Source: a virus
Length of the DNA stretch: 33,350 nucleotides
Virus record (IMG/VR): IMGVR_UViG_3300047300_000016
Span: 1-33,350 of that record
Reading direction: 5' to 3' (one strand)
This document shows, one piece after another, positions 10,750-18,708 of this stretch (within the stretch, counting starts at the first letter, position 1; every line of letters begins with the position of its first letter). Made by a program: the position numbers and the translations under genes. The notes below the pieces were generated by a model that worked only from the letters and a program-made list of their open reading frames with translations, did no database searches and was not told the origin of the DNA.

Positions 10750-11046
10750 CTTAACGAACAATCCGTTGGACAATAGTGTGCCCTTCCGATTCTTAATCTG
10801 ATCGTATGCAACTTCCATGCAGTCTACCAGATTCAAGTCTTGTAGAGCGCAATAATTAACCAGACAAACCATGACATCTCCCACAGCGTCCACAATTGCA
10901 TCACGATCTTTTTTAATGGTTGCATCGGCTAATTCTCCAAGTTCAGACATTGCTTTGAGTAGCTGAGTCTCTGGATTGCTATTAGGGATAATTTTGCGAG
11001 CTTCCGCCCATTGAATTATCTTTATTTCTACGTCTGCGTAACTCAT
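10735..11046 (-). CDS. MazG-like nucleotide pyrophosphohydrolase
   Basis: This 103-residue all-helical protein has the MazG/dUTPase-type metal site: E35-L-G-E38 in MSELGELADA, then D53-A-V-G-D57 in AIVDAVGDVMVCLVNY. This fold hydrolyses NTPs or dNTPs to monophosphate and pyrophosphate, and may clear damaged or unwanted nucleotides or change (p)ppGpp levels. The length matches single-domain phage MazG proteins. Its start overlaps the upstream stop by 4 bases, and it is the last gene of the leftward block. Confidence 0.82.
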   Translation of the reverse strand: MSYADVEIKIIQWAEARKIIPNSNPETQLLKAMSELGELADATIKKDRDAIVDAVGDVMVCLVNYCALQDLNLVDCMEVAYDQIKNRKGTLLSNGLFVKSLGE

Positions 11047-11375
11047 TTGATACCTTTCATAACTCGTTGTTTCTTACCAGAGCGTCCTACTCTAGCGCCA
11101 ATGATTTCAATATAACCTTTGTCTAGCAAAGCACGATACCTCCCTGTTATTGAGGAGTAAGGATAGTCTGGATACATCTCTAGTATCTCGTCTGAGATAC
11201 ACCCATCAGGAAAGCCCTTTATAGCCTCATAGACGAGACTTTCCATCTTCTTGGTATCAACTGCTTGGGCAGCGTCAATAGAGGTTTCTGGGCTGTCTTT
11301 ACGATGCAACTTAAATGGCGCTGTGCCAAAGAAGTTATCCATTGAAAGTTTCATTCTGTTAAACATATCATTCAT
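11043..11375 (-). CDS. Winged-helix DNA-binding protein
   Basis: This 110-residue protein has an unstructured N-terminus with FFGTAPFKLHRKDSP and then a likely winged helix at about residues 43-105: helix SLVYEAIKGFPDG, recognition region YSSITGRYRALLDKGYIE and basic wing GARVGRSGKKQRVMKG. I place it among MarR/Lrp-like winged-helix folds by pattern, not by a named family. It could regulate early genes. A strong AAAGGAG lies upstream, after a 173-base non-coding stretch, so its expression may be set separately from the recombination genes. Confidence 0.65.
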   Translation of the reverse strand: MNDMFNRMKLSMDNFFGTAPFKLHRKDSPETSIDAAQAVDTKKMESLVYEAIKGFPDGCISDEILEMYPDYPYSSITGRYRALLDKGYIEIIGARVGRSGKKQRVMKGIK

Positions 11376-11800: not shown

Positions 11801-12418
11801 TTATAACTCCTTAGCTTTCTTTAAAGCACTTCTTACTTTACTAGGAAGCAGAGTCCACAATGCTATTTTTTGCTCGGCATCTAGGTTCTCAGCTTCCAAC
11901 TTCACCCAAGCTGTCTTAGGTTCTTCTTGCTCACAGATAGCAATTAGATCAACTGCTAACTCTTGCAAATACTGTAGTTCCTCTGGAGGAATGTTATCTG
12001 TTGCACCCTGTGTTGGTGTAATCACAGGCGCTTTTTCTTCTTTGTTTGGCGCAGAAGCATCAAAGCTATCATTTTCCACGAGGTCACAGGCACACATATA
12101 AAGGTAACGGCGCTGATAAGTCTGAATTCCACCCATGGACTGGATGGGTGATGCGCCTTTCATGTTTGACTCAACCATTGGACTTGTAATCACAATCATT
12201 GTGCCATCGTCAACATCAGTAATTGTCAAACTTGCATATTCAGCATCAAACGACACTACGCTGCACAAACCGATGCGGTTAAAGATTGCGTTTACTTGAG
12301 GGAGAAAGTCTCCCAATTCAAAGTAGTGGTAGTTGCCAAACTTGTTGTGGCCTGACTTCTTGAGTGGCATTGACTGTAATTCCACTCGTGCTTGCATTAA
12401 CTTCTTATGTACCATCAT
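11801..12418 (-). CDS. erf: ERF-family single-strand annealing recombinase
   Basis: This 205-residue protein matches the P22 Erf family. Early helices (KLMQARVELQSMPLKKSG, then NKFGNYHYFELGDFLP) lead to the core signature GGIQTYQRRYLYMCACDLVE near residues 96-115 followed by NDSFD. ERF proteins form rings, coat ssDNA and anneal complementary strands, and in P22 they circularise the injected genome. Residues 125-145 are a Pro/Thr-rich linker, and the remainder is a small helical C-terminal domain. The ATG overlaps the upstream stop. Confidence 0.88.
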   Translation of the reverse strand: MMVHKKLMQARVELQSMPLKKSGHNKFGNYHYFELGDFLPQVNAIFNRIGLCSVVSFDAEYASLTITDVDDGTMIVITSPMVESNMKGASPIQSMGGIQTYQRRYLYMCACDLVENDSFDASAPNKEEKAPVITPTQGATDNIPPEELQYLQELAVDLIAICEQEEPKTAWVKLEAENLDAEQKIALWTLLPSKVRSALKKAKEL

Positions 12419-13082: not shown

Positions 13083-13100
13083 TTGATTTCCTTAATTGCC

Positions 13101-13146
13101 CGTTTACAAAGTGTTGCGGGTTGAGGGAAGTATAGCAAAGTAAACG
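13101..13146. promoter_or_regulatory. Inverted-repeat candidate operator in divergent control region
   Basis: CGTTTAC (13101-13107) and GTAAACG (13140-13146) are perfect inverted repeats. They flank the leftward -10 box, and the right arm lies between the leftward -35 and -10. Binding of one regulator to both arms would block leftward transcription. The neighbouring Cro-like protein is the obvious candidate. Confidence 0.4.
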
Positions 13147-13156
13147 AGCAGGTCAA
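13129..13156 (-). promoter_or_regulatory. Leftward sigma70-type early promoter
   Basis: On the minus strand, TTGACC (13156-13151) and TATACT (13134-13129) are separated by 16 bases. Both boxes are close to consensus. Transcription would start near 13122 and give a leader of about 40 bases before the gene at 13082. This is the only clear promoter serving the whole 13082-10735 block. Confidence 0.65.
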
Positions 13157-13182
13157 CAATTATTTTCTAAGTATTTTCCCTA

Positions 13183-13211
13183 GTGTTGTATTTTGTTAAC
13201 TAAGCTATACT
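13183..13211 (+). promoter_or_regulatory. Rightward early promoter with -10 TATACT
   Basis: TATACT lies at 13206-13211, and only a weak -35 (GTGTTG, 13183-13188, 17 bases away) is visible. The expected start site, 7 bases past the box, is position 13218, the A of the Cro-like gene's ATG. The octamer GCTATACT (13204-13211) is the exact complement of AGTATAGC (13129-13136) in the leftward promoter. Confidence 0.5.
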
Positions 13212-13217
13212 CTAAGG

Positions 13218-13370
13218 ATGGACATTAAAAAAGCTATCACACTTGCAGGCTCACAGAGTGAGCTAGCTCGTATCTTTGGCATTACAAGGGCGGCAGTCAA
13301 CCATTGGAAGACTATCCCTCCTTTACGCCTTTATCAACTCAAAGAACTCAGACCAGATTGGTTTAAATGA
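13218..13370 (+). CDS. Cro-like helix-turn-helix regulator
   Basis: This 50-residue protein reads MDIKKAITLAGSQSELARIF, GITRAAVNHWKTIPPLRLYQ, then LKELRPDWFK. SQSELARIFGITRAAVNHWK is a textbook HTH of the Cro/YdaS type: helix 2, turn at G, recognition helix RAAVNHW. It sits divergently from the leftward block beside candidate operators, as Cro does in lambdoid phages. I see no matching cI-like repressor, so it may only time early genes. The AAGG abuts the ATG, leaving no spacing for a normal ribosome site. The next gene overlaps as ATGA. Confidence 0.8.
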   Translation: MDIKKAITLAGSQSELARIFGITRAAVNHWKTIPPLRLYQLKELRPDWFK

Positions 13371-13744
13371 CACAAGCAAAAGTAATTAAAGCCCTCCAGA
13401 ACGGCCCACTAACCTCACATGAGGTAGCTAACCTGACTGGTATGCCACAAGCCACAGTCTTATCAACAGCAAAGAAACTACGCCACCAAGGTAAGCTGAC
13501 CACAGAGATCATCAAAGTCGGTCGCCATTGGGTAGCTCAGTACACCTTGGATGAGAGCCTGATCGAGTACAAGCCTAAGAAGGATGACGAGGAAACTCGC
13601 TGCAAGCTAAACCCATTTGACATTCGTAACGCCAAGGGTATCTTTACACCTGCTGAGTATCGAGTGATGAACGCCCAAGCCAGAAGGCTTTACAAGGCCA
13701 ATCCAGACTTTACGAAAACAATTACCAACAATCAAAGAATCTGA
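13367..13744 (+). CDS. Winged-helix DNA-binding protein
   Basis: This 125-residue protein opens with a clear winged helix: VIKALQNGPLTSHEVANLTG, then MPQATVLSTAKKLRHQGKL, and a wing IIKVGRHWVAQYTL (residues about 5-60). The C-terminal half is basic and polar, with TPAEYRVMNAQARRLYKANP. It is coupled to the Cro-like gene and precedes the replication gene, so a role in early regulation or replication is likely. It resembles small phage proteins annotated as MarR/IclR-like HTH, with no closer identity. Confidence 0.7.
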   Translation: MTQAKVIKALQNGPLTSHEVANLTGMPQATVLSTAKKLRHQGKLTTEIIKVGRHWVAQYTLDESLIEYKPKKDDEETRCKLNPFDIRNAKGIFTPAEYRVMNAQARRLYKANPDFTKTITNNQRI

Positions 13745-13851: not shown

Positions 13852-14637
13852 ATGCACTACTATCAACACCATATTGGTGATTTCATCAAGGATACTTCGT
13901 TTTTAACAAATGAAGAAATTGGGATTTATCTTAAGTTAATTTGGCTTTACTACGACACAGAAAAGCCATTGCCAAACAATTTATTTGAACTTGGGATGAA
14001 GACAGGAACTCGTGACAACACGGAAATGTTGTCAGGATTGCTTGAAATGTTTTTTTCATTTCACTCAGTTGAAGATTGTTGGCATCACAACAGATGCGAC
14101 AAAGAAATTGAACACTACAAACAGCAACTAACTACTGCTTCTAAAGCTGGAAAAGCATCAGCACTTAAACGAGCGATGAACAAAAATTCAACAAGCGTTG
14201 AACGAGCGTTGAACGAGCGTTTAACAGATGTTCAACCAACCAATAACCAACAACCAATAACCAATAACCAAGTTAAAGAAAACAAGCGTGGCTCACGCCT
14301 CGCTAAAGATTTAATTTTTCCAGAAGAATGGTTTTTGTTTTGTAAACAAGAAAGACCAGACTTAGAGCCATTGATTACTTTTAATAAGTTTCAAGATTAC
14401 TGGATAGCCCAAGCTGGTCAAAAGGGTGTCAAGCTAGATTGGTTTGCCACATGGCGTAATTGGGTGAGAAACACAAATGCACCGAAAGTTAATCCTGCTG
14501 ACATTGTGAGGCTCACAGTTCCATTAAAGAATGAGCCTGACCCTGCATTGGAAAAGATTAAGGCTGATGAAAAGAAGGCTACACCAATGCCAGACCACAT
14601 TCGCAAATACATTGCAGAAGTAGTAAGGAAAGCATGA
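13852..14637 (+). CDS. DUF1376 replication-initiation-type protein with internal iteron-like repeats
   Basis: I choose ATG 13852, with GGAG about 7 bases upstream, because the DUF1376 domain starts there (MHYYQHHIGDFIKDTSFLTN, then EEIGIYLKLIWLYYDTEKPL). Residues 1-95 are this winged-helix-like domain, typical of phage and prophage replication proteins. Residues 110-145 form a low-complexity linker encoded by direct DNA repeats. Residues 150-210 (DLIFPEEWFLFCKQERPD to DWFATWRNWVRN) resemble the C-terminal region of lambda O-like and other initiators. It probably marks the origin and recruits host helicase, since no phage helicase is present. The 261-residue length is normal for the type. Confidence 0.78.
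   Translation: MHYYQHHIGDFIKDTSFLTNEEIGIYLKLIWLYYDTEKPLPNNLFELGMKTGTRDNTEMLSGLLEMFFSFHSVEDCWHHNRCDKEIEHYKQQLTTASKAGKASALKRAMNKNSTSVERALNERLTDVQPTNNQQPITNNQVKENKRGSRLAKDLIFPEEWFLFCKQERPDLEPLITFNKFQDYWIAQAGQKGVKLDWFATWRNWVRNTNAPKVNPADIVRLTVPLKNEPDPALEKIKADEKKATPMPDHIRKYIAEVVRKA
14197..14270 (+). repeat. Iteron-like direct repeats, candidate replication origin
   Basis: GTTGAACGAGC occurs twice in tandem (14197-14207, 14208-14218), followed by the degenerate GTTTAACAGAT. Next comes an AT-rich run with three copies of CCAATAACCA (14240-14249, 14254-14263, 14261-14270). The position inside the initiator gene, between its two domains, is the same as the lambda origin inside gene O. Confidence 0.55.
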
Positions 14638-15290
14638 AAGTCCTCCCAATTAACAATTTTGAAGTTGAGCCTTGGTTACTTGAAAAACACTATGCCAAGC
14701 GTATGCCTCAGATCATGCACGCCTTTGGTCTTTACAAGGATGACATCTTGGTTGGTGTCGTAACATACGGAATACCCGCTTCACCACCACTTTGCATGGG
14801 AATTTGTGGAAAAGAGTACTCAGACAAGGTTTTAGAGCTAAACAGAGTCTGTTTACTGGACAACCACAAAAACGAAGCATCTTTTCTTGTTGCAAACTCT
14901 ATTAAGTTGTTGCCAAAACCAATGATTGTGGTTTCGTTTGCCGATACAAGCCAAGGTCATGTTGGCTATGTCTATCAGGCTACCAACTTTCTCTATACTG
15001 GTTTATCAGCAAACAGGATTGATTGGACAATCAAAGGCCAAGAGCACAAACACGCCAAAACTATTGGTGACGGATTAACCCTTGCTGAGATTAAAGAGCT
15101 TCATGGTGATGACTTTTACTATGTTGAGAGGTCAAGAAAGCACAGATATATCTTGTTTCATGGATCAAAAACAGACAAGAAGGTCTTGCGTTCTAAGTTG
15201 AAATACGAAGTGTTGCCCTATCCAAAGGGTGACTCTCAAAGATACGATTCTGGAACTACTGTAAAAACTCAACAACTTTTATTCGCATGA
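14634..15290 (+). CDS. Mom-like DNA adenine modification protein
   Basis: This 218-residue protein has the pattern of phage Mu Mom, which converts adenine in DNA to a carbamoylmethyl form and protects phage DNA from many restriction enzymes. Visible motifs are H19-Y20 near the N-terminus, ELNRV at 68-72, SFADTSQGHVG at 101-111, YQATNFLYTG at 114-123, and RKHRYILF at 168-175. The fold is GNAT-like, and the HY pair and the SxADTxxGHxGxxYQAxNF block are the most telling. It overlaps the replication gene by 4 bases. I do not see a Com-like translational activator nearby. Chemistry of the product here is inferred. Confidence 0.82.
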   Translation: MKVLPINNFEVEPWLLEKHYAKRMPQIMHAFGLYKDDILVGVVTYGIPASPPLCMGICGKEYSDKVLELNRVCLLDNHKNEASFLVANSIKLLPKPMIVVSFADTSQGHVGYVYQATNFLYTGLSANRIDWTIKGQEHKHAKTIGDGLTLAEIKELHGDDFYYVERSRKHRYILFHGSKTDKKVLRSKLKYEVLPYPKGDSQRYDSGTTVKTQQLLFA

Positions 15291-15593: not shown

Positions 15594-15862
15594 GATATGC
15601 CGCTAGAGTTGATGCTAACCAAACCCAGATAGTTTCTGCCTTGCGAGCCGCAGGTGCTTATGTCTGGATTATTGGCTTACCTGTTGACCTTTTGGTTGGC
15701 TACAAGAATCACACTTTTCTGGTGGAGATCAAAGATGGCTCTAAAAAGCGTTTAACCAAGCTACAAGCCGATTTTTTTGAAGGGTGGATAGGTGGGACGC
15801 TATGCAGGGTAGATAACGCTGAGAGCGCCTTAAGAATGATTGGGGTAAAAAATGATTCTTAA
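15590..15862 (+). CDS. VRR-NUC-type nuclease
   Basis: This 90-residue protein has a minimal PD-(D/E)xK core: VDANQTQIVSALRAAGAYVW, then PVDLLVGY (D33 region), FLVEIKDG (E46 and K48 region) and a following Gln (TKLQADFF). This is the pattern of small VRR-NUC and related phage nucleases that act on branched DNA. Next to NinB and upstream of a Ref-like nuclease, it likely resolves recombination or replication intermediates. It overlaps genes on both sides. Confidence 0.82.
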   Translation: MRYAARVDANQTQIVSALRAAGAYVWIIGLPVDLLVGYKNHTFLVEIKDGSKKRLTKLQADFFEGWIGGTLCRVDNAESALRMIGVKNDS

Positions 15863-16253
15863 CCTGACAAGCACAGAACAGGCGAAAACCACTATCCGTC
15901 TTCATTGGGACAAAATAACCAAGGCTTTGGACTCTGGTAAACATCTAACAATGGAGATCAAGCTGGCAAGCAAAAGCCGTGAGCAAGAGGAAAAGTACCA
16001 TGCAATGATTGGCGACATTGCCAAACAAGCACAGCACATGGGTGCTAAGTGGTCTGCCGAGGATTGGAAGCGTTTACTGGTTGACCAATACTTGCGTGAA
16101 ACAGAGAACATACAAGGGAAGATCATTCCTAACCTTGATAGCTCTGGCATCGTTCAACTAGGGATGCAAACAAGGAACTTCACCAAGGAACAAGCAAGCG
16201 AATTTGTAGAGTGGCTTTACGCTTGGGCAGCAAATAACGGAATAAATTTGTGA
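15852..16253 (+). CDS. ninB: NinB recombination protein (lambda Orf family)
   Basis: This 133-residue protein matches NinB, which binds ssDNA and helps recombination by replacing host RecFOR functions. Telling parts are EQEEKYHAMIGDIAKQAQHM, AKWSAEDWKRLLVDQYLRE, IIPNLDSSGIVQLGMQTRNF and the C-terminal EQASEFVEWLYAWAANNGI. Length fits the family. It overlaps the nuclease by 11 bases, and a candidate operator-promoter follows its stop. Confidence 0.88.
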   Translation: MILNLTSTEQAKTTIRLHWDKITKALDSGKHLTMEIKLASKSREQEEKYHAMIGDIAKQAQHMGAKWSAEDWKRLLVDQYLRETENIQGKIIPNLDSSGIVQLGMQTRNFTKEQASEFVEWLYAWAANNGINL

Positions 16254-16270
16254 TTAGGGTAAGTCCCTAG

Positions 16271-16299
16271 ACTAAACATCTTGTTTAGTTTGCTATACT
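16271..16299 (+). promoter_or_regulatory. Extended -10 promoter with perfect palindromic operator
   Basis: ACTAAACA (16271-16278) and TGTTTAGT (16282-16289) form a perfect 8-base inverted repeat with a 3-base spacer. Just downstream is TGC-TATACT (16291-16299), an extended -10. The palindrome occupies the -35 region, so a bound regulator would directly repress, or activate, the small-gene cluster from 16346. Confidence 0.6.
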
Positions 16300-16345
16300 A
16301 ACGTCAGCCCAAACAATTCGTGAGGGTACTTTTAAGGATTAAGTC

Positions 16346-16603
16346 ATGGAATACGAATTTGAAACAACTACTGGTGCTGGTGGCGAGACTGTGCAATGCG
16401 TCTTGGAGTACGAGATGGACGAGGAAGGTACATACGCAGAGAATCTTAAGTCAATTCACTTTGAAGGCGTAGATGTATTTGCTTTGCTGTCTGATGAACA
16501 ATTCATGCAGATTGAGATGGATGGCACTATGAAGCTGGCAAGTCACTTGTTGGCTGAGTCTGACCATTCTGCATCTGTTGAATACGACTTGAGAGCCGTA
16601 TGA
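16346..16603 (+). CDS. 85-residue acidic small protein
   Basis: This protein is strongly acidic (MEYEFETTTGAGGETVQCVL, then EYEMDEEGTYAENLKSIHFE) and probably mixed alpha/beta. AAGG lies 9 bases before the ATG. It is the first gene after the operator-promoter at 16271-16299. Its charge recalls DNA-mimic or host-inhibitor proteins, but nothing specific supports that. Family unknown. Confidence 0.65.
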   Translation: MEYEFETTTGAGGETVQCVLEYEMDEEGTYAENLKSIHFEGVDVFALLSDEQFMQIEMDGTMKLASHLLAESDHSASVEYDLRAV

Positions 16604-16752
16604 TTCTTGGTTGCAAGCCAAAAGAGCCTGATGCAAAGTGTTTGAACTGCAAAAGGCTTTTTTTACCTAATGCTGTCAATGTCAAGAACTCTAAGGACAA
16701 GGCTTGCATTTATGTACCTAAATCTTTACAGGTGAAAACGACACATCGCTAG
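16600..16752 (+). CDS. 50-residue protein with zinc-ribbon-like Cys pair
   Basis: This ORF is ATGA-coupled to the acidic gene. It encodes MILGCKPKEPDAKCLNCKRL, FLPNAVNVKNSKDKACIYVP, then KSLQVKTTHR. Four cysteines, including CLNC, suggest a small metal-binding knuckle. It is basic. I know no family; the coupling is the main support. Confidence 0.5.
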   Translation: MILGCKPKEPDAKCLNCKRLFLPNAVNVKNSKDKACIYVPKSLQVKTTHR

Positions 16753-16765
16753 AACGTGTCGATTT
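16736..16765 (+). terminator. Weak hairpin after 16600 gene
   Basis: CGACAC (16739-16744) pairs with GTGTCG (16756-16761), with AAA and TTT able to extend the stem. There is no long T run, so termination would be weak at best. Confidence 0.25.
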
Positions 16766-16782
16766 AATAGAGAAAAACAAAC

Positions 16783-17007
16783 ATGACTAAAAAAGACATA
16801 GTTCGCATGGCACAAGAGGCAGGATTGGTTAATTGGGAAGCTACTGCATACGCAAATGAACTTGAACGCTTTGCTAAGTTAGTAGCTTCTGCTGAACGAG
16901 AGAAATGTGCAAAAGTGTGTGAAAAATTAAAAAAAGATATGACACCTATTGCTGCACTAAGTGCATGGGCTTGTGCAGTAATGATAAGAGCAAGGGGACA
17001 AGCATGA
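16783..17007 (+). CDS. 74-residue conserved phage accessory protein
   Basis: The protein reads MTKKDIVRMAQEAGLVNWEA, ANELERFAKLVASAEREKCA, KVCEKLKKDM. The pattern MTKxDIxRMAxEAG...LERFAxLVAxAEREKCAxVCE is common in phages of Burkholderiales and relatives, where the genes are of unknown function. It is almost all helix, with paired cysteines. It is coupled by ATGA to the next gene. Confidence 0.7.
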   Translation: MTKKDIVRMAQEAGLVNWEATAYANELERFAKLVASAEREKCAKVCEKLKKDMTPIAALSAWACAVMIRARGQA

Positions 17008-17450
17008 CTAAAGACGAAGCATTGAAGCTGGCGCTGGAGGCGTTACAACATGAAGCAGACACAGGAAATGATGATGCTTATAAATTAGAGCGTGATGCCA
17101 TCAAAGAAGCCTTGGCACAGCCAGAGCCTTGGGAGAAGTTCTGCGATTCAAATTGTGTTTGGACTGACCATTATCCTGATTGCAAGTTGGCAGAGCAGGA
17201 GCCTGTGGCGTGGTTAAAAGTTGTGGAAACGCACGGAGGTTGGGGGAAGTTTGTAGAAGCCAAGCCAAATGACAAAGATGCAAAGCCTGTCTACACCACC
17301 CCACCACCCGTGGCGGAGCCACATAAGCGCAAGCCGTTATCGGATGAGAAGATTAACGAGTTCTTTCAAGGCATGGAACCAAATAACGGATTCTGGCTTT
17401 CATTTGCCCGAGCCATCGAAGCCGCACACGGCATTAAGGAGAACACATGA
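17004..17450 (+). CDS. 148-residue conserved phage accessory protein
   Basis: I start it at ATG 17004, in an ATGA overlap, rather than at an upstream in-frame codon at 16965. The N-terminus MTKDEALKLALEALQHEADT and the central EQEPVAWLKVVE are recurring elements of a modular phage protein found in many proteobacterial phages. Cys residues cluster at about 46-62 (FCDSNCVWTDHYPDC). The last 40 residues are another helix pair. The function is unknown. Confidence 0.7.
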   Translation: MTKDEALKLALEALQHEADTGNDDAYKLERDAIKEALAQPEPWEKFCDSNCVWTDHYPDCKLAEQEPVAWLKVVETHGGWGKFVEAKPNDKDAKPVYTTPPPVAEPHKRKPLSDEKINEFFQGMEPNNGFWLSFARAIEAAHGIKENT

Positions 17451-17680
17451 CTGAATGGACAAAAGAGGAAGACGAAGCCTTTAACGATGTTGAAAGGCAA
17501 TCTAACCTTGGTAAGCAAATACTGAGAGATTTAGGTCAGCCTTACTACTATGACACTTATGTCTCACCAACACAGAGAAACGAAGTGTTAGAGGAAGTGG
17601 CTAAAGAGTTTGACAAGATGAAAGCCTTTGGCACTACTGCTGAGTCGTTCGCAACATTTGTAAGGAATATGAAGCAATGA
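17447..17680 (+). CDS. 77-residue acidic helical protein
   Basis: This ORF is ATGA-coupled at both ends. It reads MTEWTKEEDEAFNDVERQSN, a Tyr-rich patch (GQPYYYDTYVSP), then EEVAKEFDKMKAFGTTAESF. It is likely helical and acidic with no membrane segment. Family not recognised. Confidence 0.6.
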   Translation: MTEWTKEEDEAFNDVERQSNLGKQILRDLGQPYYYDTYVSPTQRNEVLEEVAKEFDKMKAFGTTAESFATFVRNMKQ

Positions 17681-17871
17681 CTGATGCTGAAATTTATATA
17701 AATTACCCTCACATTCCTGAAATAGCTTTAGGAGTATTTTGGGGATGGTTTCTTATCAAGTTGTTTTTAAAGTTAAATGGTGGAATAAAAAATGTTATTT
17801 ATTTGCTAAAAAAATACTTTGAAACAGAAAAAATGGCAATTGATGCTTTGAAAAGGAAAAATCATGGGTAA
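17677..17871 (+). CDS. 64-residue membrane protein, AT-rich gene
   Basis: The product has a hydrophobic segment at about residues 13-32 (PEIALGVFWGWFLIKLFLKL) followed by a basic amphipathic helix (GIKNVIYLLKKYFETEKM). One membrane span is likely. The gene is more AT-rich than those beside it, which may point to separate origin. It is ATGA-coupled upstream and overlaps the next start. The function is unknown. Confidence 0.6.
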   Translation: MTDAEIYINYPHIPEIALGVFWGWFLIKLFLKLNGGIKNVIYLLKKYFETEKMAIDALKRKNHG

Positions 17872-18061
17872 AGGCTCAACCCCAAGACCATTCAATGTAA
17901 GCAATCAAGAATACGCAAATAGATGGGATGCCATTTTTGGCAGAGATAATGAGAAAAAGAACGAAGCGCAAAATCTGGAATCTGATCGACCCCTGCACTC
18001 ATGCGATAGTGGGAGCAGCGATAACCCAGAGGGACAAGCTGGACAAGCTCAGGATGCTTGA
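17864..18061 (+). CDS. Small conserved phage protein (MGKGS type)
   Basis: The N-terminus MGKGSTPRPFNVSNQEYANR followed by WDAIFGRDN is a widespread small phage protein of unknown function; I know it from many Caudoviricetes with nearly the same start. Relatives usually end soon after the WDxIF motif. Here an extra polar tail of about 30 residues overlaps the start of the next gene in another frame. AAGG AAAAATC precedes the ATG. Confidence 0.72.
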   Translation: MGKGSTPRPFNVSNQEYANRWDAIFGRDNEKKNEAQNLESDRPLHSCDSGSSDNPEGQAGQAQDA

Positions 18062-18407
18062 GTATTCCGCTCTTGAGGCCATCACTAAGGGCAATGGGAC
18101 TATCCATGACTGGCGAGTTCTAGTCGATGTTCTAAACCTATCTGAAATGATGGGAAAGAACGGAGTAGGCCCAGAGGTGCTACCTATCTGCCAAAAAGCC
18201 CAGACAAGCCTCCATAAAGCCGCTATGCGCTACCAAGAGACATTGAGCATGGGATTGGACGGAGAAGGAATAAAAGCCTGTAGAGACTTGATCGAATACG
18301 CTGATCTACAGCAAGGAAGTATCTCAAGAAGTGAGTTTGAGAGATACATTCAGAAAACAAAAGACTACATTCGTTCACATGGCGACAAGGTGGTAGAGAT
18401 TGAATAA
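17949..18407 (+). CDS. 152-residue conserved phage protein (Fis-like annotation in relatives)
   Basis: I prefer ATG 17949 (MRKRTKRKIWNLIDPCTHAI) over an ATG at 17928, since relatives begin with a basic RKRxKxK stretch. It continues with HAIVGAAITQRDKLDKLRML, ALEAITKGNGTIHDWRVLVD and LNLSEMMGKNGVGPEVLPIC, and is helical throughout. Similar phage proteins are often labelled Fis-family regulators on weak grounds. Most of its start overlaps the previous gene by 113 bases. It may bind DNA through the basic N-terminus; function unproven. Confidence 0.65.
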   Translation: MRKRTKRKIWNLIDPCTHAIVGAAITQRDKLDKLRMLEYSALEAITKGNGTIHDWRVLVDVLNLSEMMGKNGVGPEVLPICQKAQTSLHKAAMRYQETLSMGLDGEGIKACRDLIEYADLQQGSISRSEFERYIQKTKDYIRSHGDKVVEIE

Positions 18408-18657
18408 CAACCCTACAAAGCGTGAAAGACTGCACCTAGCAAGAATCAAAGAGATGCCTTGCGGTGTTTGTGGTCAGTCTGGGCCATCGGATGCACATCA
18501 CATTAAACAGCATCACCAGTATCTCTGTATTCCGCTTTGCAAAGACTGCCATCAAGGGTCGCACAATGGAATCCATGGTCAAGCACGAATTTGGGCAGTT
18601 TATAAACATGACGAAATGTCTGTTTTAAACGACACATTGGCTAAGTTGATTGGATAG
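18400..18657 (+). CDS. Ref-like HNH endonuclease, TTG start
   Basis: This 85-residue protein begins at a TTG overlapping the previous stop by 8 bases. It carries CGVCG (residues about 21-25), DAHHIKQHHQY (31-41) and PLCKDCHQGSHNGIHGQ (45-61): a zinc-bound HNH/beta-beta-alpha metal core. The C..C / AHH / PLCxxCH..GIHG layout matches the P1 Ref recombination-enhancing, RecA-dependent nuclease group and related phage HNH proteins. Here it closes the early rightward operon just before an intrinsic terminator. Confidence 0.78.
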   Translation: MNNNPTKRERLHLARIKEMPCGVCGQSGPSDAHHIKQHHQYLCIPLCKDCHQGSHNGIHGQARIWAVYKHDEMSVLNDTLAKLIG

Positions 18658-18682: not shown

Positions 18683-18708
18683 AGAGGGATTGAGTTCCCT
18701 CTCTTTTT
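18683..18708 (+). terminator. Intrinsic terminator ending early rightward operon
   Basis: AGAGGGA (18683-18689) and TCCCTCT (18696-18702) form a perfect 7-bp stem around TTGAGT, followed by C and five Ts (18704-18708). It separates the early block from the late small-protein and packaging genes. Confidence 0.85.

Follow-up and report, generated by a model that had tools for sequence, protein, structure and literature searches.

The window, the whole stretch of DNA analysed here, is a virus record of 33,350 bases. Its terminase is 83-84% identical to those of the uncultured Manatee Spring phages MW202710, MW202462 and MW202544, and the first named isolate among the matches listed stands at 43% identity. 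A palindrome, termed element B below, lies between ninB and a run of small open reading frames starting at 16346 (Table 1). It is made of ACTAAACA (16271-16278), TCT and TGTTTAGT (16282-16289), and a single T separates it from the extended -10 TGCTATACT of a promoter, P3. The original prediction had described a perfect 19-base palindrome (8+3+8) joined to an extended -10, and both are there to the base. It had further taken the palindrome for an operator-like dyad in the place of the -35 box, which is supported, and the start that it put at 16306 is the +1 predicted by the family alignment.

Table 1. Features of the window around cro and downstream of ninB
Feature	Position	Strand	Sequence or detail	Basis
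P1 mRNA 5' hairpin leader	13098-13123	-	CAACCCGCAACACTTTGTAAACGGGC
P1 (leftward)	13129-13158	-	-10 TGCTATACT 13129-13137; -35 TTGACC
P1 half-sites	13139-13146; 13151-13158	-	AGTAAACG; GGTCAACA (+ strand letters)
Element A common to P1 and P2	13168-13182	.	TAAGTATTTTCCCTA (1 mismatch)
P2 (cro)	13194-13211	+	half-site TGTTAAC 13194-13200; -10 AGCTATACT 13203-13211
cro-like gene, probable binder of element B	13218-13370	+	50 aa	Pfam
ninB	15852-16253		phrog_72 NinB/Orf
Element A at P3, probable activator site	16255-16269	.	TAGGG-TAAGT-CCCTA, centre -44	read directly
Element B, probable Cro operator	16271-16289	.	palindrome, centre -26	read directly and comparative
Extended -10 of P3	16291-16299	+	TGCTATACT; no -35 (best 2 of 6); absent from two-hexamer scan output
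P3 mRNA 5' hairpin leader	16305-16327	+	CAGCCCAAACAATTCGTGAGGGT (16305 = -1)
Predicted P3 transcription start	16306	+	A of CAGCCC	family alignment
P3 ribosome binding site	16334-16338	+	AAGGA
Probable P3 operon	16346-18657	+	nine selected ORFs	ORF list
Terminator-like stem	18683-18702	+	followed by CTTTTTG

By itself the palindrome does not exceed chance. Perfect 8-base arms occur 8 times in the window with gaps of 0-12 (8.6 expected in first-order random sequence) and once with a gap of 3 (0.65 expected). ACTAAACANNNTGTTTAGT within 3 mismatches has one match in the window, the palindrome itself, and 21 of 100 shuffles contain at least one. With arms at chance level, the meaning of the palindrome rests on its placement and on its conservation in relatives, and it is because of this context that we set aside mere chance as its origin. 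In the 43 nearest ninB loci (L019-L061, among the best 80 of 306), the gap downstream of ninB contains TGTTTAGTTTGCTATAC in 36 cases and variants in six, and is cut off in one; a hairpin leader follows the P3 dyad in 42. The perfect 8+3+8 form is found in two of them (L019 and L032). The leader core GGGTACTTTTAAGGA is absent from the + strand of the remaining 37 loci of the same best 80, which are more distant (L062-L098), and a blastn comparison of 16200-16360 with INPHARED returned no matches.

Three promoters and their common parts

The comparison covers 80 loci each for ninB and cro, the best of 306 and of 384 respectively, and additional loci chosen by a 33-base leader core, at least 120 stretches. 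The counts given from here on refer to distinct sequences or loci and not to genomes, and one contig may give several loci. Three promoters emerge from the relatives: P1 (leftward), P2 (cro) and P3 (after ninB). TGTT-N-A-S-T followed by TTTGCTATACT is common to many of them, and, as read from these alignments, a predicted promoter module recurs in many related freshwater phages. The original prediction, right about the palindrome and the -10, had missed the upstream dyad, the modules at both cro-region promoters and the hairpin leader. P1 and P3 classes were assigned by script, and the P3 class includes promoters that do not follow ninB, at least one of the two of L020 and the inner leader of L064. 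In the latter phage a second full module (element A, ATAAG dyad, hairpin) lies within the leftward operon, at ~1600-1700 on the minus strand.

Of the distinct leader promoters (n = 226), 193 have a TANNNT hexamer at -12 to -7; base -1 is then C (182) or T (11), one of which the leader pattern itself requires there. At P2, transcription is predicted to start at the A of the cro start codon, with hexamer and ATG 5-6 nt apart in the 80 sequences that extend far enough upstream, and the cro mRNA is probably leaderless. The -35 box is poor at two of the three window promoters (P3 2, P2 2, P1 5 of 6). Among relatives, P2 scores at most 3 of 6 in 72 of 72, and the P1 promoters that have element A reach 5 of 6 in 32 of 67; their P3-class counterparts average 3.08, against 2.56 in shuffled sequence, with 4 or 5 of 6 in 30 of 105. 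At P3, L027, L034 and others have variant cores, TATACA or AAACTATAC; taking TACAAT or TAGAAT as their -10 leaves the distance to the hairpin nearly fixed.

Upstream of these promoters stands element A, a dyad of the form TAGG-N7/8-CCTA whose centre lies near -42, -52 or -62. Among distinct promoters, 105 of 117 in the P3 class and 67 of 76 in the P1 class have it, as do 23 of 28 P3-class clusters (80% ungapped identity). The looser TAGG-N6..8-CCTA, with at most one mismatch, precedes 59 of 60 P1, 69 of 72 P2 and 113 of 121 P3 promoters (distinct 96-mers), against 6% in shuffles; as one physical copy serves both P1 and P2, their counts are not independent. In the P1 class (n = 76), the centre is at -42/-43 in 7, at -52 to -54 in 59 and at -62 in 1, with 9 lacking the element. 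In the P3 class (n = 117), it is at -42/-42.5 in 61, at -44 to -45 in 16, at -52 to -53.5 in 25 and at -62/-63 in 3, with 12 lacking it; the window copy is two bases from the main class. Centres near -42, -52 and -62 are spaced by about one helical turn. The period is about 10 bp (R 0.81 at 10.3), and none of 20,000 uniform draws was as high, a figure that is not a clean probability because ungapped clusters still hold related sequences.

Activator-dependent promoters of class II and class I are exemplified by those of CRP, by lambda CI at PRM and by P2 Ogr. Like them, P2 and most P3 promoters have no -35, and element A sits near -42, -52 or -62, in phase with the helix. As predicted from sequence, element A plus an absent -35 is the anatomy of class II/I activation, and A is probably an activator site standing in for the missing -35. 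Unlike in those cases, the activator is represented here by a candidate site. Several phages depart from the scheme. The P2 of L179 has A 38 bp from its -10, off phase; phages of the L219 type lack A at P1 and P3; and type-2 phages (defined by their Cro, see below) have it at none of 9 distinct P1 and at 7 of 11 distinct P3. In MW202710, A lies 21 bp from GATAAT, a -10-like box (spacing by eye). Inspection by eye showed no A upstream of cro in MW202484 or in Pantoea phage PdC23 (Cro 43-49%).

As for the protein that would read A, L219 and L251, whose P1 and P3 are without A, keep all of the genes at 12415, 12585, 11043 and 13367, none of which thus discriminates its presence. The winged-helix protein at 13367 was rejected as the reader of A, since L064 and L065 have A and no match to this protein (a diverged copy is possible). 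The nearest genome match of the window Cro, at 76%, is the L179 contig in a Comamonadaceae MAG bin, a weak hint at the host; the other two genome matches are at 36% and over 27 residues. A host regulon motif was likewise rejected: in 81 genomes related to that sole MAG match, TAGGGWAARYMCCTA is not enriched, its 3 matches (in 2 genomes) being equalled by 3 matches of the control, a null result that speaks for that clade only.

The 5' hairpin leader

The predicted P1 and P3 RNAs begin with A[G/A]CCC, and a hairpin starts 1-2 nt from their predicted 5' end and stands directly before the ribosome binding site. Scored in whichever of up to four registers fits best, all 58 distinct leaders, which represent 370 instances in overlapping loci, have two inner pairs. 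The ungapped alignments A3 and A4 take in 38 of 40 distinct hairpins, with two of middle length left out. The 20 short forms are 99.2% paired, a value reached by none of 500 shuffles, and their inner pairs vary (G-C 11, A-U 5, G-U 4 for one; C-G 18, A-U 2 for the other). In the 18 long forms, pair 7-22 is A-U in 11 and G-C in 7 and is never broken. Eight of the 18 cannot form pair 8-21, and overall pairing is no higher than in shuffles (88.2% vs 88.1%; 188 of 500 reach the score). An earlier covariance model (R1, from MAFFT alignment A1) had 4 pairs only, with short and long forms misaligned, and was set aside. Of 193 promoters, 177 combine G at position 2 of the leader with U as the closing base of the stem, and 16 combine A with C; mixed combinations do not occur. 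G.U and A.C pairs can be isosteric.

The placement, 1-2 nt from the predicted 5' end, recalls the stabilising 5' stem-loops of the ompA/papA type. The leader differs from these in its two-part stem with an A-rich internal loop and in a P3 sequence that hardly varies. The hairpin would probably protect the mRNA or tune its translation, and 5'-end protection is the role that we favour, with control of translation or antitermination as serious alternatives. According to a review on decay (PMC3997798), Bacillus subtilis RppH requires at least two unpaired nucleotides at the 5' end.

That the leader is instead an antitermination (nut/put-like) or translational control element, and not a stabiliser, has not much less than an even chance, a judgement that concerns the leader alone and is not to be added to those on the palindrome below. 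Its presence at P1 and P3 and its absence at P2, predicted to be leaderless, would fit such a role, and identity of the 33-base P3 core in at least 120 stretches is stricter than protection from decay should require. Against it, and at variance with lambda nut/boxB, Rfam returned no match in the window, nor in 16290-16350 at E 1, and a general scan, not specific for antiterminators, found no antiterminator among 33 of the 57 listed open reading frames. The leader pattern is found in none of the 81 MAG-related genomes.

Element B and its candidate readers

The consensus of element B is TYAACA-N3-TGTTRA. The window has the full dyad at P3, and half-sites only at P1 and P2. Many relatives have perfect dyads at P2 (arms of at least 6 bases), such as AAGTCAACATTTTGTTGACTT, or GTCAACA-TTT-TGTTGAC, and type-2 phages have TTTAAACA-TTC-TGTTGA at P1. 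At 0-1 mismatch, B is missing from 42 of 117 P3-class and 40 of 76 P1-class promoters. In the P3 class (n = 117) its centre is at -20 in 8, at -26 in 48, at -28 in 16 and at -29/-30 in 3; since it shifts relative to the -10, B lies outside the promoter core, as a repressor site may.

We put at roughly two in three the probability that element B is the operator of the phage's own P22-Cro-type repressor; among the proteins considered, Cro would be the best candidate reader. The window Cro matches P22_Cro in Pfam with 35.7 bits (cut-off 30.2) and YdaS_toxin with 37.6 (cut-off 30), and also phrog_409/35. By tblastn, Cro falls into type 1 (177 loci), type 2 (19) and type 3 (3), and between these types the predicted B differs while the predicted A persists. 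As cases in point, L064 and L065 (type 3, one lineage, Cro 57% identical) have ATAAG-N4-CTTAT dyads at both leader promoters and have kept element A (TAGGGTAAGTCCCTA / TAGGGTTTGTCCCTA); MW202462 (Cro 50%) has TTAAG half-sites and has kept A, 22 bp from TACAAT. Two type-2 phages with Cro helices unlike the others, L033 and L265, have arms of the TAAAC/GTTTA type at P1 and P3, and the remaining phages of this type have TCAAC/GTTGA arms at P1. At P3, the latter are of the TCAAC type in L219, L190, L185 and L291 and of the TAAAC/TGTTTAG type in L011, L043, L294 and L020, so that in type 2 the joint change of arm and Cro rests on P1. These mixed P3 sites, together with type-2 Cro proteins under the P22_Cro cut-off (26.3 in L014, no listed match in L011 and L017), weaken the Cro reading. 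Within type 1, the P3 right arm is mostly TGTTTAG or TGTTGAG over 11 variants of the recognition helix and does not track the helix; most phages with the recognition helix IERSAVHQW do have a P1 and a P2 unlike those of the others.

A blind scan of 2.9 million viral contigs for the exact palindrome found 17 stretches in 16 contigs, L006 and L011 being members of the window's phage group. Of 24 window proteins, L013, L014 and L017 have few or none. They have a type-2-like Cro (tblastn E 3e-11 to 2e-17) and four to six dyads (0-1 mismatch), of which two lie between cro and the gene diverging from it and the other two to four elsewhere, where a shuffled locus is expected to hold 0.58; L014 and L017 also have an S24-type CI gene. 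No such Cro was found in the other 11 contigs, within the stretch examined: six are one homologous locus (L004, L005, L008, L010, L015 and L016), two have the palindrome inside a 303-codon open frame, and L009 and a two-site contig (L002/L018) are unassigned. In the last, L003, the exact palindrome (1475-1493) is flanked by a divergent pair of HTH regulator genes of a different kind.

One could suppose that only the right arm TGTTTAGT matters, as a spacer element read by RNA polymerase or by a phage sigma factor or activator, the left arm being luck. This would account for a right arm that is nearly fixed at P3 (bases 0.87-0.96 conserved) next to a less conserved left arm, most commonly TAAATA (n = 85), and the rarity of the perfect palindrome in near loci, with arms at chance level, goes the same way. 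We hold it unlikely, as the dyad stands at -20, -26 or -28 to -30 depending on the phage, both arms are perfect at P2 of many relatives, and the same class of dyad is found beside cro in L013, L014 and L017.

It is quite unlikely, in our estimate, that B is bound by the winged-helix protein at 13367-13744, or by a host protein, in place of Cro. That protein is present in 26 of 28 cro loci with wide flanks, and type-1 and type-2 Cro differ while the class of dyad is common to both. By contrast, it has no match in L064 and L065 and no tie to the dyad, the changes of operator track the type of cro, and in other contigs dyads have an operator-like position beside cro and CI. The second winged-helix protein (11043-11375) was rejected as a binder of B, being present in just 7 of the 28 wide cro loci. 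Of the binders named in the original prediction, comparison thus retains the Cro-like protein and disfavours the winged-helix ones. Finally, a weak terminator or RNA hairpin ending the ninB transcript is highly improbable: the palindrome does come after the ninB stop and TTT follows, but it has two G-C pairs only, is absent from the terminator scan list, loses its pairing in most relatives, where the left arm is TAAATA, and occupies -34 to -17 of a promoter that is conserved.

To come back to the Cro operator, the preferred reading, some protein on the A dyad (centre -44) would probably switch P3 on, in class II/I manner. The transcript would start at 16306 with the hairpin at its extreme 5' end, probably slowing decay or tuning translation. 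Cro on the palindrome would cover about -34 to -17 and block RNA polymerase, shutting off the 16346-18657 operon in parallel to its own promoter P2 and to the leftward P1. The sequences show the elements, their conservation, their spacing and their change with Cro type; Cro binding, the direction in which it acts and the function of the RNA are inferred.

A possible cassette and the genes downstream

The nearest parallel is P22 Cro with its OR/OL operators, the lambdoid CI-Cro switch. There too a small protein of the P22_Cro family is encoded divergently from a leftward operon, and dyads lie over early promoters; here full dyads do so at P3 in the window and at P2 in many relatives, while P1 and P2 of the window have half-sites only. 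The contigs L013, L014 and L017 have the same class of dyad beside cro, with CI in two of them (L014 and L017). The window phage differs from that switch in that no CI-type match or integrase was found among the 33 of 57 listed open reading frames scanned, in a third dyad promoter, after ninB, and in a cro mRNA predicted to be leaderless. The operator itself is of a known kind; the combination of a phased dyad with a 5' hairpin, as predicted here, is a new promoter arrangement. The literature searched contained no description of the leader or of the A dyad, a weak negative.

We tentatively propose, as possible rather than probable, that early and accessory operons are run from a transferable cassette. 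It would be composed of a phased site for a phage or host activator not described before, a Cro operator that can be exchanged, an extended -10 and a hairpin of a new 5'-terminal RNA family, nearly invariant in its P3 copy. The repressor/operator pair would be exchanged while the activator site and hairpin are kept, so that, if this is true, swapping the pair would change immunity-type specificity without rewiring the remainder. The result is a map of regulation that can be put to the test in a large group of uncultured freshwater phages, and it names their probable repressor and operator. It also raises two leads, the protein reading the phased TAGG-N7/8-CCTA dyad and the role of the 5' hairpin, and the operator/Cro pairs make a natural data set on the Cro recognition code.

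Concerning the genes downstream of P3, a cluster of about ten small genes with likely anti-host functions had been expected. The count is close, with nine selected open reading frames before the terminator-like stem (the terminator scan lists 8 such stems in the window, against 8.2 in shuffles). The supposed function finds no support, none of the nine matching PADLOC at E 0.01 or rising above a Pfam cut-off. The first (16346-16603), present in 28 of 28 wide cro loci, codes for an acidic protein of 85 residues with 20 D/E against 3 K/R. Its predicted fold is beta-beta-beta-alpha (mean pLDDT 78), with no PDB match at E <=0.001, and a role as DNA mimic is conceivable. Downstream of cro, 14634-15290 codes for a Mom-like DNA modification protein (phrog_1384, E 6e-56), which is variable cargo, as it is found in only one of the 28 wide cro loci.
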